Virus record (IMG/VR): IMGVR_UViG_3300038696_000352
Span: 1 to 32,099 of that record
DNA from: a virus
Length of the DNA: 32,099 nt
Reading direction: 5' to 3' (one strand)
In this document: in pieces, positions 16,456 to 19,807 of the stretch
Layout: every line of letters begins with the position of its first letter
Position numbering within the stretch: position 1 is the stretch's first letter
Program-made: the position numbers and the translations under genes
Notes under the pieces: generated by a model
What the model saw: the letters and a program-made list of their open reading frames with translations, nothing else
Told to the model about the DNA's origin: nothing
The model's database searches: none

Positions 16456-17085
16456 TCAGGGCCCTTTCTTTCGGAAAACGCTGTATTGAAAGCTCTGTTG
16501 ATTGCCTTTCGGCGTAATGTGCACATGCCGTTGTGCGCTGATCATCTCGAACTGTCCCGGCGCAAGTCTGTTCAGCTCTTGTTCCAGTTCTTCTGGCGCA
16601 TAACGAACCACAGGCAATCCGGAGCACTTCTCAGGCCCGTCATCCGCGAACGTCGCAATGATTGCGGCCCCATCGGGACGAAGCGCTTGGGACATCGCTT
16701 GGGCATATGCCGCGCGCGACTCTGCGTCGGTCAGAAAATGAAACACGGCGCGGTCATGCCAGACGGCATAGGCCCGATCAGGCTGCCACGTTGTCACGTC
16801 AGCCTCGATCCAATCGACGCCGTCGCCAAGACTACCAACTCTCTGCCTGCTGGTTTCGAGGGCAGAGCCTGAAAGATCCAGTACGGCCAACGGGCTGAAA
16901 CCCTTGTCGAGCAGAGCATCCACTAGGCGCGACGCGCCCGCCCCAACGTCGATCAGAGCATCGCCAGGGCGCAGATATAATCCGACGAGTTCCAGAGATA
17001 TCGAGGGCGTTGCCTCGAACCATGTCAAGTCATCTTCGGATCGCGCGCCATAAACGCCGTCCCAGTGCTCCTGTCTCCCTGCCAT
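16456..17085 (-). CDS. Class I SAM-dependent methyltransferase (TPMT-like)
   Basis: A 209-residue soluble methyltransferase. The ATG at 17085 is chosen because MAGRQEHWDGVYGARSEDDL is the usual beginning of this family (HWDxVY) and AGGG lies upstream. The SAM-binding motif I is LIDVGAGAS (residues 44-52), with the ribose-binding Asp in LAVLDLSGSAL (about residue 70), motif II-like WIEADVTTW and a VWHDRAVFHFL motif IV region, as in thiopurine/small-molecule methyltransferases. This is a metabolite- or toxicant-type enzyme, not a DNA methyltransferase: there is no DPPY or PCQ motif. It is an unusual neighbour for phage genes, and the gene upstream of it (17201-17386) lacks its usual C-terminus. 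It may be a late arrival that damaged that gene. Confidence 0.88.
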   Translation of the reverse strand: MAGRQEHWDGVYGARSEDDLTWFEATPSISLELVGLYLRPGDALIDVGAGASRLVDALLDKGFSPLAVLDLSGSALETSRQRVGSLGDGVDWIEADVTTWQPDRAYAVWHDRAVFHFLTDAESRAAYAQAMSQALRPDGAAIIATFADDGPEKCSGLPVVRYAPEELEQELNRLAPGQFEMISAQRHVHITPKGNQQSFQYSVFRKKGP

Positions 17086-17200
17086 TCTGTTCGACCCTTT
17101 CTTTGAGATCATCGTATGGGATCGGATCAAAAGTGGCCAACGGATTTGAGGTCTCCCGTCATATTCAAGAATTACGGACACGGATCGCCTCAAACAGGCG

Positions 17201-17386
17201 TCAAAAGATGAACGATCTGAAAATCGATACACCCTTAAATATCAGCCCCATTTGCAGATTCTGCGCCAGCGTCGTGTGCAACCCGAAGATCGGGAAGATC
17301 AGGATCTGCGTGACAACCGCGACGCCGAAGCCGACGAACACGTTGGCGACAGACTCGACCAGCGACATAGCGCGGGACTGCTTCAT
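17201..17386 (-). CDS. DUF7220-like small membrane protein, C-terminally truncated
   Basis: A 61-residue protein (MKQSRAMSLVESVANVFVGF...) with two hydrophobic segments, VANVFVGFGVAVVTQILIFP and a weaker one near GLIFKGVSIF. It matches what I know of the DUF7220 family, whose members run on after VSIxRSF with a basic tail (ALRRLFE-like). Here the reading frame stops after VSIFRSFIF, so the tail is missing. The truncation faces the methyltransferase gene whose start lies about 115 nt further on. The start is well placed: GAGGTG lies about 8 nt upstream, and the ATG also overlaps, as ATGA, the stop of the second open frame of the upstream methyltransferase region. Confidence 0.7.
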   Translation of the reverse strand: MKQSRAMSLVESVANVFVGFGVAVVTQILIFPIFGLHTTLAQNLQMGLIFKGVSIFRSFIF

Positions 17387-18573
17387 GCCGACACCTCATC
17401 CACCAGCCAATAATTCAACTGCGAGAGTTCGCAGCGCATGCGCTGCAACCAAGGGGACCACGCCGTTGCCACAGAGGCGAAGCCGGTCCACCCGGTGGGC
17501 CAGCCCATCAGCGCCTCGACGAACAGCGGGTTCAAGGTCCGGCGCACATCGCAGGTATCGTGCCCAGCCATCGGCGTCACTAGGACTTGGCGGCCAAGCA
17601 GCCCGTTGACCGGCGTATTCGCCAAGGTCGTCGCGCCATCTTTGTGATCCCGCGCTGTCGGCGTCATCCACATGCGGCTGGCATGGGTCAGATCCGCTGT
17701 TTTGCGGTTCCCAGCACTCGGTTTGCAGCCGTCGTTCGCCATCGGCGTCGGCCAGTCGCGCGCCATGCCGTCCAGACCCTTCTCGTGTTTCCGGTCGCCA
17801 CCCCGGCTGCGGAAACTGTCGGTCTGCGGCGTCGGCCACATTACGGCGCTCGTTGCAAGGTTCATCCCATGCTCGCCCGCTTCCTGTGAAGGAGTTGGTT
17901 TCGTCTGCCGGTTCTCGTTTGCACTCGCGCGGGGTGTCGGCCACAGCCGCATCATTTCCGTCCGGTTCCCGCCACTCGACCGGATCCCAGAGTAGGCGCG
18001 CGGGGTCGGCCAGCGCGTCACCCTCGCGGATAGCAAGGATGAACAGGCGCTCGCGCCGGTGGAGCGCACCGACTTCCGCCACCGTAAAGAGGCCTGCCGC
18101 AAGGCGGTAGCCCATGCCGACCAGTCCGCGGGCGACTTCGGGGAAGCCGAGGCGGAGATGATGGGCGACATTCTCGAGGAAGACGAAGGGCGGTTTGATC
18201 TCGCCGATGATGCGGGCGACATGTGGCCAGAGGTGACGCGGGTCGTCAGCACCCCGCCGCTTGCCCGCGACCGAAAACGGCTGGCACGGATAGCCCGCAG
18301 TAACGATATCCACCGCGCCGCGCCAAGGTCGGCCGTCGAAGGTTCCAACATCATCCCAGACAACAGCTTGATCCAGGGACGCGTCTTCCATCCGCGCCAC
18401 GAGAGTGGCTGCGGCGAAGGTTTCCCGTTCGACATGGCCCACAGCACGATATCCGGGGATAGCGATGGTGAGCCCGAGGTCGAGTCCGCCCGCGCCAGAG
18501 CAGAGCGAGAGGCCGAAAAGGCTTGCGTCTGCGGCTCCGGAAACGCGTCCGGAGGAAGGTAAAGCCAGGTCAT
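17383..18573 (-). CDS. Second open frame across the C5 methyltransferase: WPTP-repeat polypeptide
   Basis: This frame is open for 396 codons in +1 register relative to the C5 methyltransferase and starts 4 nt after it. Its first half looks like a shadow (Ser/Arg-rich, motifs all in the other frame). From about residue 190 it becomes regular: RWPTPRAYSG, LWPTPRASAN, MWPTPQTDSF, DWPTPMANDG, MWMTPTARDH, LVTPMAGHD. It then reads LNPLFVEALMGWPTGWTGF, a sequence I recognise as typical of the C-terminal part of many phage C5 methyltransferases or adjacent proteins. Its stop overlaps the next gene's ATG as ATGA. It may therefore be truly translated, by a frameshift or an internal start, or be a relic of an alternative target recognition region. 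Confidence 0.35.
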   Translation of the reverse strand: MTWLYLPPDAFPEPQTQAFSASRSALARADSTSGSPSLSPDIVLWAMSNGKPSPQPLSWRGWKTRPWIKLLSGMMLEPSTADLGAARWISLLRAIRASRFRSRASGGVLTTRVTSGHMSPASSARSNRPSSSSRMSPIISASASPKSPADWSAWATALRQASLRWRKSVRSTGASACSSLLSARVTRWPTPRAYSGIRSSGGNRTEMMRLWPTPRASANENRQTKPTPSQEAGEHGMNLATSAVMWPTPQTDSFRSRGGDRKHEKGLDGMARDWPTPMANDGCKPSAGNRKTADLTHASRMWMTPTARDHKDGATTLANTPVNGLLGRQVLVTPMAGHDTCDVRRTLNPLFVEALMGWPTGWTGFASVATAWSPWLQRMRCELSQLNYWLVDEVSA

Positions 18574-18577
18574 TCAT
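17396..18577 (-). CDS. DNA (cytosine-5) methyltransferase
   Basis: A 393-residue C5 methyltransferase that should methylate phage and host DNA, probably against restriction. Ordered motifs: I LSLCSGAGGLDLGL (residues 23-36), IV GYPCQPFSVAGKRRGADD with catalytic Cys98, VI FVFLENVAHH with ENV at 135-137, VIII HRRERLFIL (173-181), and a late motif X-like RLRLCGNGVVPLVAA. The region between VIII and X, where the target recognition domain should be, is built of imperfect repeats with ADA/ADAD cores (LADPARLL, VADTPRE, NVADAADRQ, RLADADGER, VDDADSAG) and is rich in charged, disorder-promoting residues. The same DNA read one frame over encodes WPTP repeats (separate entry). It starts 3 nt after the ParB-domain methyltransferase stop. 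Confidence 0.92.
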   Translation of the reverse strand: MNDLALPSSGRVSGAADASLFGLSLCSGAGGLDLGLTIAIPGYRAVGHVERETFAAATLVARMEDASLDQAVVWDDVGTFDGRPWRGAVDIVTAGYPCQPFSVAGKRRGADDPRHLWPHVARIIGEIKPPFVFLENVAHHLRLGFPEVARGLVGMGYRLAAGLFTVAEVGALHRRERLFILAIREGDALADPARLLWDPVEWREPDGNDAAVADTPRECKREPADETNSFTGSGRAWDEPCNERRNVADAADRQFPQPGWRPETREGSGRHGARLADADGERRLQTECWEPQNSGSDPCQPHVDDADSAGSQRWRDDLGEYAGQRAAWPPSPSDADGWARYLRCAPDLEPAVRRGADGLAHRVDRLRLCGNGVVPLVAAHALRTLAVELLAGG

Positions 18578-18580
18578 GCC

Positions 18581-19807
18581 TCAATCGTCTTTGGTCTTGA
18601 TCGTGTTGAACGTCTCGTCCGAGCCCGCGAGAACGGCGTCCTTGCCGGTGAACTGCTGCCAGCGTTCCACGGCTACATCGACATAGGCGGGGTTCAACTC
18701 GATCCCGTAGCAGACGCGGCCTGTGGTCTCGGCTGCAATCAGCGTGGTGCCAGACCCCATAAATGGTTCGTAGATCGCCTGACCCGGGCTTGAATTGTTC
18801 AGGATTGGGCGGCGCATGCATTCCACCGGTTTTTGCGTCCCGTGTACCGTCTTGGCATCCTGATCCTTGCTTGGGATCTGCCACAGCGTCGTCTGCTTGC
18901 GGTCACCCGCCCAATGGCCCTTGCCGGTCTTTTTGACGGCGTACCACGCCGGTTCATGTTGCCAGTGATAATCGCCCCGGCTGAGCACCAGCCGCTCCTT
19001 GGCCCAGATGATCTGCGAGCGGATGTTGAAACCTGCAGATTCGAGACTTTCGGCCACGGTCGCCGCATGCAGCGCGCCGTGCCAGACGTAGGCCACATCA
19101 CCCGGAAACAGCGCCCAGGCCTCTCGCCAATCTGCGCGGTCATCGTTCAGCACCTTACCGGTGCGCTTGGTTTTGGCTGCCCCCGCCTGGTTCCGCCAGC
19201 TTGGGTCGTACTCAACACCGTAGGGTGGATCGGTCACCATCAGCATCGGTTTCACAGTGCCGAACAGCCGCTCAGTGTCGGTCGCCACGGTGCTGTCACC
19301 GCAGAGCAGTCGATGGTTGCCAAGGATCCAGAGGTCACCGAGGCGACTGACCGGGTCCTCTGGCGTGTCCGGAATGTCGTCCTCACCCTCCTGCGGACCT
19401 GTGCCTGCATCAAGGCTGTTCATCAGCGCGTTCAGCTCGTCGTCGGTGAAGCCCGTCAGCCCCAGATCAAAATCAGCCTCCAGCAGGTCCGCCAGTTCGA
19501 GGTTCAGCAGGTCCTTGTCCCACTCAGCGTTTTCGCTAGAACGGTTGTCCATGATCCGGAAGGCGCGGGCTTGGGCCTCGGTCAGCCCCTTGGCAACATG
19601 CACCGGTGCGGATTGAAGACCGAGCTTGCGCGCCGCTTCCAGTCGCGTGTGCCCAGCCAAGACGACCATTGCCTCATCGACAACGATGGGCTGCCGCCAG
19701 CCAAACTCCTGGATCGACGCTGCGACCGTGGCGATGGCCTGCTCGTTGCGCCGTGGGTTGCGCGCATAAGGAATGATCTGCCCAAGAGGCAGTTCGATAA
19801 CGTCCAT
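18581..19807 (-). CDS. ParB-domain-containing DNA methyltransferase (DPPY, beta class)
   Basis: A 408-residue protein. Residues 1-90 form a ParB/Srx-like domain (IELPLGQIIPYARNPRRNEQ, SIQEFGWRQPIVVDEAMVVL and the AGHTRLEAARKLGL core). An acidic linker (EDDIPDTPEDPVSRLGDLWI) leads to an N6-adenine/N4-cytosine methyltransferase with LLCGDSTVATD, catalytic DPPYGVEY (193-200) and, late, EPFMGSGTTLIAAE (about 347-360), the SAM site. The catalytic motif before the SAM motif is the beta-class order. The fusion is common in phages, where the enzyme acts without a cognate nuclease, probably shielding DNA or altering gene expression. The specificity cannot be read. It leads into the C5 methyltransferase gene, so the two are probably co-transcribed. 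Confidence 0.93.
   Translation of the reverse strand: MDVIELPLGQIIPYARNPRRNEQAIATVAASIQEFGWRQPIVVDEAMVVLAGHTRLEAARKLGLQSAPVHVAKGLTEAQARAFRIMDNRSSENAEWDKDLLNLELADLLEADFDLGLTGFTDDELNALMNSLDAGTGPQEGEDDIPDTPEDPVSRLGDLWILGNHRLLCGDSTVATDTERLFGTVKPMLMVTDPPYGVEYDPSWRNQAGAAKTKRTGKVLNDDRADWREAWALFPGDVAYVWHGALHAATVAESLESAGFNIRSQIIWAKERLVLSRGDYHWQHEPAWYAVKKTGKGHWAGDRKQTTLWQIPSKDQDAKTVHGTQKPVECMRRPILNNSSPGQAIYEPFMGSGTTLIAAETTGRVCYGIELNPAYVDVAVERWQQFTGKDAVLAGSDETFNTIKTKDD

Follow-up and report, generated by a model that had tools for sequence, protein, structure and literature searches.

Two overlapping open reading frames (ORFs) on the minus strand of the virus record IMGVR_UViG_3300038696_000352, whose 32,099 bases constitute the window analyzed here, appear to encode the two chains of a single DNA methyltransferase. 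ORF A (17396..18577, minus strand, 393 amino acids) corresponds to the catalytic, alpha-like chain of a C5-cytosine DNA methyltransferase, and ORF B (17383..18573, minus strand, 396 amino acids), which lies in frame +1 relative to A and carries a series of WPTP-like units, is proposed as its specificity, or beta-like, chain. The frame favoured by selection switches twice along the gene, from A at motifs I-VIII to B at the units and back to A at motif X. On comparative sequence grounds, we are thus fairly confident in proposing a two-chain enzyme in which chain B, nested in another frame of A, would supply modular target recognition. The initial annotation of this DNA had placed two meaningful frames at 17383-18010; both are present there, but they overlap across almost the whole gene and are not confined to that interval.

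Selection and openness in the two frames

In a close-family sample comprising 84 relatives of equal length (median nucleotide identity 0.89), neither frame contains a stop in any member (84/84). Variability peaks at the third position of A over codons 1-180, at the first position of A (equivalent to the third of B) over codons 205-335 or so, and at the third position of A again after approximately codon 362. Changes were sorted by their effect on each frame, and rates were obtained for those silent in B only and for those silent in A only. In the catalytic part (codons 21-190) these rates are 0.067 and 0.252, respectively, and in the unit array (codons 206-335) they are 0.338 and 0.048. The proposal that each repeat unit codes in both frames is thus not borne out, for within the array purifying selection acts on the WPTP frame only. 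The sequence of frame A is nearly neutral across the array and is merely kept stop-free: its variability peaks there at 0.20-0.30 over most of the length, close to the third-position variability of the downstream DUF7220 gene (0.338), which served as neutral reference, the upstream flanking gene being unusable for this purpose because it is represented in 12 loci only. Both rates are low over A codons 347-361, the motif IX stretch (dNS 0.046, dSN 0.012), and true dual selection is restricted to about these codons. Conserved patches of B are found in the catalytic half as well, namely MTWLYLP at its start and the LSWRGWKTRPW and DWSAW blocks.

A test on 27 independent pairs from other lineages, outside the family of the window, shows the switch from A to B to A again. 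Differences at A positions 1/2/3 amount to 417/223/949 in the catalytic part, 650/275/230 in the units and 90/38/179 at motif X. Since the rates switch by region, the two frames are not jointly selected at every base. Purifying selection confined to a single frame had been named at the outset as the observation that would speak against dual coding, and it is indeed encountered, although region by region and with the favoured frame changing along the gene. Two translated proteins account for this pattern better than do the alternatives initially put forward, a dual-coding region and two database families that are alternative readings of one repeat DNA.

Conservation of open frames provides a second line of evidence. 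A search with the A protein alone yielded 80 loci (one truncated at its 5' end), among which 77 have both frames intact and 2 have an intact B but a stop in A within the unit array. Within the family, where loci are phylogenetically non-independent, T is found at the third position of B codons in 0/2285 sites at which it would stop A versus 923/6990 safe sites, and Leu and Val codons of A that precede the letter A carry the TG or TA endings that would stop B in 0/122 cases, as opposed to 841/2904 elsewhere. Among distant loci, 104/108 have no stop in A within the unit array, with 1.5 expected if only B were constrained, and in 80/87 B stays open through the 120 codons that precede the end of motif VIII, with 1.8 expected; as the loci are in part related to one another and most were retrieved through B, the expectations serve as a guide rather than as the basis for a p-value. 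The unused frame, examined as a control in the same 87 loci, is open in 1 versus 1.4 expected, indicating that the method does not favour openness. Stops are therefore avoided in A and in B where only translation explains it, and both proteins are almost certainly made.

The two frames begin at a double start, ATGAATG (18571..18577, minus strand), in which the ATG of A (18577-18575) and that of B (18573-18571) are 4 nt apart. The ATG of B is kept in 92/92 relatives, and the second codon of A is always NAT (82 CAT, 7 AAT and 3 GAT), leading to His, Asn or Asp at this residue. Many distant alphaproteobacterial loci present the arrangement RTGA followed by ATGTGGCTC, that is, the start of A, a stop in the B frame and then the start of B, and the N-terminus of B, M(T/A)WLYxP, recurs in distant loci. 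In several loci resembling that of E. coli phage K1ind2, ggag lies a few bases before the ATG of B, in the context TAG-ATG. Such closely spaced starts would be compatible with translation of both chains by reinitiation.

Motifs, putative recognition units and gene context

Frame A matches PF00145 over residues 23-188 (E 1.1e-29, 104.4 bits against a cut-off of 22), phrog_363 (6.9e-55) and M.HhaI (2.1e-11). The methyltransferase motifs initially ascribed to it were located: motif I (LCSGAGGLDLG, 18473..18505), where frame A is the selected one, motif IV with its PCQ and catalytic Cys (GYPCQPFSVAG, 18263..18295), motif VI with its ENV (LENVAHH, 18158..18178) and the motif VIII region (VGALHRRERLFIL, 18035..18073), all on the minus strand, like the remaining features described here. 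Together with the PF00145 match, they place chain A among the C5-methyltransferases. The Pfam match ends at residue 188, residues from about 200 to 335 are near neutral in frame A, and motif IX is found in frame B. Frame B, for its part, matches phrog_1008 (1.1e-16) and phrog_27243 (5.2e-15), two families that are also matched by each of the 53 members of its alignment, and has no match in Pfam or NCBIfam. Searched separately, the two readings thus each proved to be conserved, as had been anticipated. PHROG families 1008 and 10223 have matches in B, at the units or motif IX, as well as in A, at motif X; that of 10223 to B is weak. Such a double match would be expected if other phages carry these parts in one chain.

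Chain B carries an array of W[x]TP units of about 30-45 amino acids each, followed by motif IX. Six WPTP-like repeats leading into LNPLFVEALMGWPTGWT had been read from the window. The latter is indeed present, as motif IX, at B residues 347-363 (17485..17535), a stretch constrained in both frames, but there are five W[PM]TP units. These start at B residues 188 (unit 1, to residue 210; 17944..18012; recurrent type M3), 211 (unit 2, to 245; 17839..17943; M2), 246 (unit 3, to 273; 17755..17838; M9), 274 (unit 4, to 301; 17671..17754; M10) and 302 (WMTP unit 5, to 336, with an approximate end; 17566..17670; M8). Motif IX follows the pattern LNP...LMG.P, with L347, N348, P349, L355, M356, G357 and P359 invariant in 10 diverse members, and motif X (RVDRLRLCGNGVVP, 17453..17494) is again in frame A. 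Motifs I-VIII and X are thus on one chain and motif IX on the other, as in a split of the M.EcoHK31I type.

Arrays contain 1-7 units. In 132 thinned arrays there are 453 units, 274 of which are covered by 49 recurrent types; these were defined by stricter clustering, as single linkage merged the units into one large group. Type M4, for instance, is found in 12 loci, where it has 9 distinct neighbours on the left and 9 on the right, and units M3 and M2 follow in the window an order opposite to that in locus L234, M2 being present also in a Verrucomicrobia genome (L248). Units are therefore shuffled between loci as cassettes. In single-chain methyltransferases of mycobacteriophages, units of this kind are encoded in the enzyme frame and sit between motifs VIII and IX, and 42/42 of this set find a match among B units (best 77% over 26 amino acids, E 7e-11). 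The shuffled types and these homologues identify the array as tandem, exchangeable units located between motifs VIII and IX, and we infer from this a role in target recognition; unlike in the multispecific enzymes, which are one polypeptide, the units lie in frame B and the catalytic motifs in frame A.

Two further observations concern the frame of the units. In mycobacteriophage loci L311-L340 (e.g. L318, L320 and L328) most LLPTP units are in the enzyme frame, and several genes have also at least one unit in frame +1; a single mycobacteriophage gene thus seems able to hold cassettes in either frame. In Arthrobacter phage 1191A (L309, 642-1772), the units are in frame +1 and a motif-IX-like EWMMG in the enzyme frame, an apparent intermediate between the two-chain and single-chain forms.

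Downstream, the TGA stop of B overlaps as ATGA the start of the DUF7220 gene (17201..17386; PF23858, 3e-26), as originally noticed. The minus-strand flanks comprise a gene with a ParB domain and an N4/N6 DNA methyltransferase (18581-19807; phrog_498, 4e-146) and a class I SAM methyltransferase (16456-17232; Methyltransf_25), so that three methyltransferase genes lie close together at this locus.

The proposed enzyme and its alternatives

The most likely interpretation of these sequences is that A and B form one enzyme, with B reading the target and A methylating it. Chain A would contribute motifs I-VIII and X, its middle part acting as a sequence-neutral linker that needs only to remain open, and chain B, starting 4 nt after A in frame +1, would contribute the unit array and motif IX as the target-recognition part. 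Both would be translated by reinitiation at the double start and would assemble into a complex in which methyl transfer is left to A and target reading to B. Each unit would recognize a DNA target, and the enzyme might shield phage DNA from restriction. If the units are indeed target-recognition modules, the array would amount to a specificity code for cytosine methylation that can be read and exchanged, and would offer a way to follow how phages track the restriction systems of their hosts. There is about an even chance, in our estimation, that the locus represents a widespread class of phage and prophage methyltransferases whose recognition code is made of shuffled, interchangeable units in a second frame, with each unit exchanged as a cassette that has to remain open in two frames and combinations giving different, possibly multiple, specificities.

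Several observations weigh against this proposal. The AlphaFold2 model of B alone is poor (mean pLDDT 44) and has no usable fold, and the unit region is unmodelled (pLDDT < 50) even in a single-chain relative, so that a DNA-binding fold for the units is conjectural. The best cross-frame unit matches fall in few types, and the weaker ones may reflect the shared TP core alone. An unbroken A, moreover, is not universal: A is interrupted within the array by several stops in L234-L236 and by one stop in L261, and is stopped there in close relatives L020 and L046. B is stopped at about codon 177 in L081. As regards L234-L236, the catalytic part ends after motif VIII, a separate frame-A ORF of ~100 amino acids holds motif X and B is intact, a layout that suggests a possible three-chain version of the enzyme.

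In the model of the single-chain mycobacteriophage enzyme, on the other hand, the catalytic domain and the motif IX-X part are confident, and residues 1-367 align end to end with M.HhaI (Z 22.8, rmsd 3.4, 234 residues). The units have no Pfam match and no related solved structure in a search of the PDB. The best PDB hit of B, the coat protein of phage MS2, is weak (E 0.0022) and was taken as chance, and for a motif IX-X fragment antibodies were the sole matches, at E of about 0.7 or worse. A single-chain proxy joining the catalytic part of A to B through a +1 four-letter codon was dropped, as its mixed alignment (A2) seemed to place the WPTP units on the catalytic LWP motif.

The lack of a model, of a Pfam match and of a related structure could also be taken to mean that B pairs with A as a second protein but that the WPTP units are not devoted to target recognition, forming for example a flexible or decoy region. 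The position that the units occupy in single-chain enzymes, between motifs VIII and IX, the purifying selection on them and their shuffling as cassettes are nonetheless as expected of target-recognition units, and we deem this explanation unlikely. A different possibility is that programmed frameshifting, from A to B before the units and from B to A after motif IX, yields one full-length methyltransferase, B being no separate protein. The favoured frame does switch exactly twice, single-chain mycobacteriophage enzymes with the same order exist and L234-L236 keep motif X in frame A despite the stops of A in the array. Frameshifting, however, would make it unnecessary for B to stay free of stops in the catalytic half and for A to do so in the array, yet openness is strongly maintained in the two cases; B moreover begins at a conserved start of its own and ends, in the window, at a stop that overlaps the start of the next gene. 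These features make frameshifting a decidedly improbable account.

The two explanations in which a single frame matters fare worse. That B is the relevant protein and A a decaying methyltransferase reading would agree with the near neutrality of A over the array and with its breakage there in a few loci, but it is contradicted for most loci by the strong purifying selection on A at motifs I-VIII and X and by its openness over the array, and its probability appears very small. Smaller still is that of A being the only real protein and B its mechanical shadow in GC-rich DNA. Pfam recognizes A alone, and keeping the protein of A leaves B open over the unit region by chance about 62% of the time, yet selection over the units follows B and the openness of B over the catalytic half in 80 of 87 loci far exceeds its expectation, so that this explanation is already contradicted.

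Distribution, database annotation and known systems

The arrangement is seen in phages infecting Komagataeibacter, Synechococcus, Acidovorax and E. coli, as well as in E. coli prophages, on plasmids of Sphingomonas, Roseicitreum and Paenibacillus, and in bacterial genomes labelled as Alpha-, Beta-, Gamma- and Deltaproteobacteria, Verrucomicrobia, Acidobacteria and Omnitrophota. Relative to the catalytic motif and to motif X alike, motif IX is in frame +1 in 52 viral and 54 further loci, a few of them with A interrupted in between; these counts refer to placed motifs, as the scans did not place all three in every locus. In dual-frame loci with motifs IX and X placed, IX is always +1 to X, L270 being frameshifted upstream. 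A long same-strand overlap with a strong and repeatable selection signal in several phyla is uncommon beyond a few textbook viruses.

The expectation that databases hold two families as alternative readings of one DNA proved correct. GenBank/RefSeq list frame B only in L001, L002, L003, L169 and L170, sometimes under the name 'methyltransferase', frame A only in L166-L168 and L171, and both frames only in E. coli phage K1ind2 (L005). On a Shinella sp. PSBB067 replicon (NZ_CP069303.1, 790636-791541), a relative of B (72% identical) lies in a stretch to which no feature is annotated. As a rule, gene callers retain a single frame, and many phage and prophage records therefore seem to lack the catalytic or the recognition chain; expressing the annotated chain alone would be expected to fail.

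A literature search in which few subscription papers were covered retrieved no description combining a split of this kind with modular units, and nothing on the arrangement beyond M.EcoHK31I. In 1995, Lee, Kam and Shaw reportedly found the small chain of M.EcoHK31I to be encoded in another frame inside the large one. The alpha chain of that enzyme is presumably 309 amino acids long, the same as chain A of K1ind2 (309 amino acids). Split C5-methyltransferases that reassemble are established, and M.EcoHK31I (YGGCCR) consists of two polypeptides, with motifs I-VIII and X on the large chain and motif IX on the small one (PMC3404938). The likeness to A and B, as judged by layout, lies in this second-chain motif IX, but the predicted target-recognition domain of M.EcoHK31I is in its large chain (PMC3404938), whereas here the selected array is in the small one. 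M.AquI, another natural two-chain C5-methyltransferase (PMC3404938), is cut once within the variable region and has IX and X together on the small chain, whereas here X is on the catalytic chain.

Cheoctovirus-type mycobacteriophage single-chain enzymes (e.g. IrishSherpFalk gp71) share related units and motif IX, but have everything in one frame, although several also carry a unit in frame +1. The multispecific Bacillus-phage enzymes are likewise single-chain and in one frame, with recognition units of about 38-54 amino acids. They comprise SPR, phi3T and others (Behrens 1987 and Trautner 1996, as cited in PMC4081073 and PMC12707154) and have, as proposed for the locus studied here, a variable region in which short target-recognition units follow one another and can be exchanged; here, by contrast, a second chain in another frame bears the array, and multispecificity is conjectural. 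An out-of-frame protein in a phage methylase gene is also known from the hidden HNH endonuclease (ShiLan domain), with the methylase frame staying open (PMC11855218), but that protein is an inserted homing endonuclease and no part of the enzyme. By analogy, the arrangement described here thus resembles M.EcoHK31I in layout and the multispecific Bacillus-phage enzymes in modularity.
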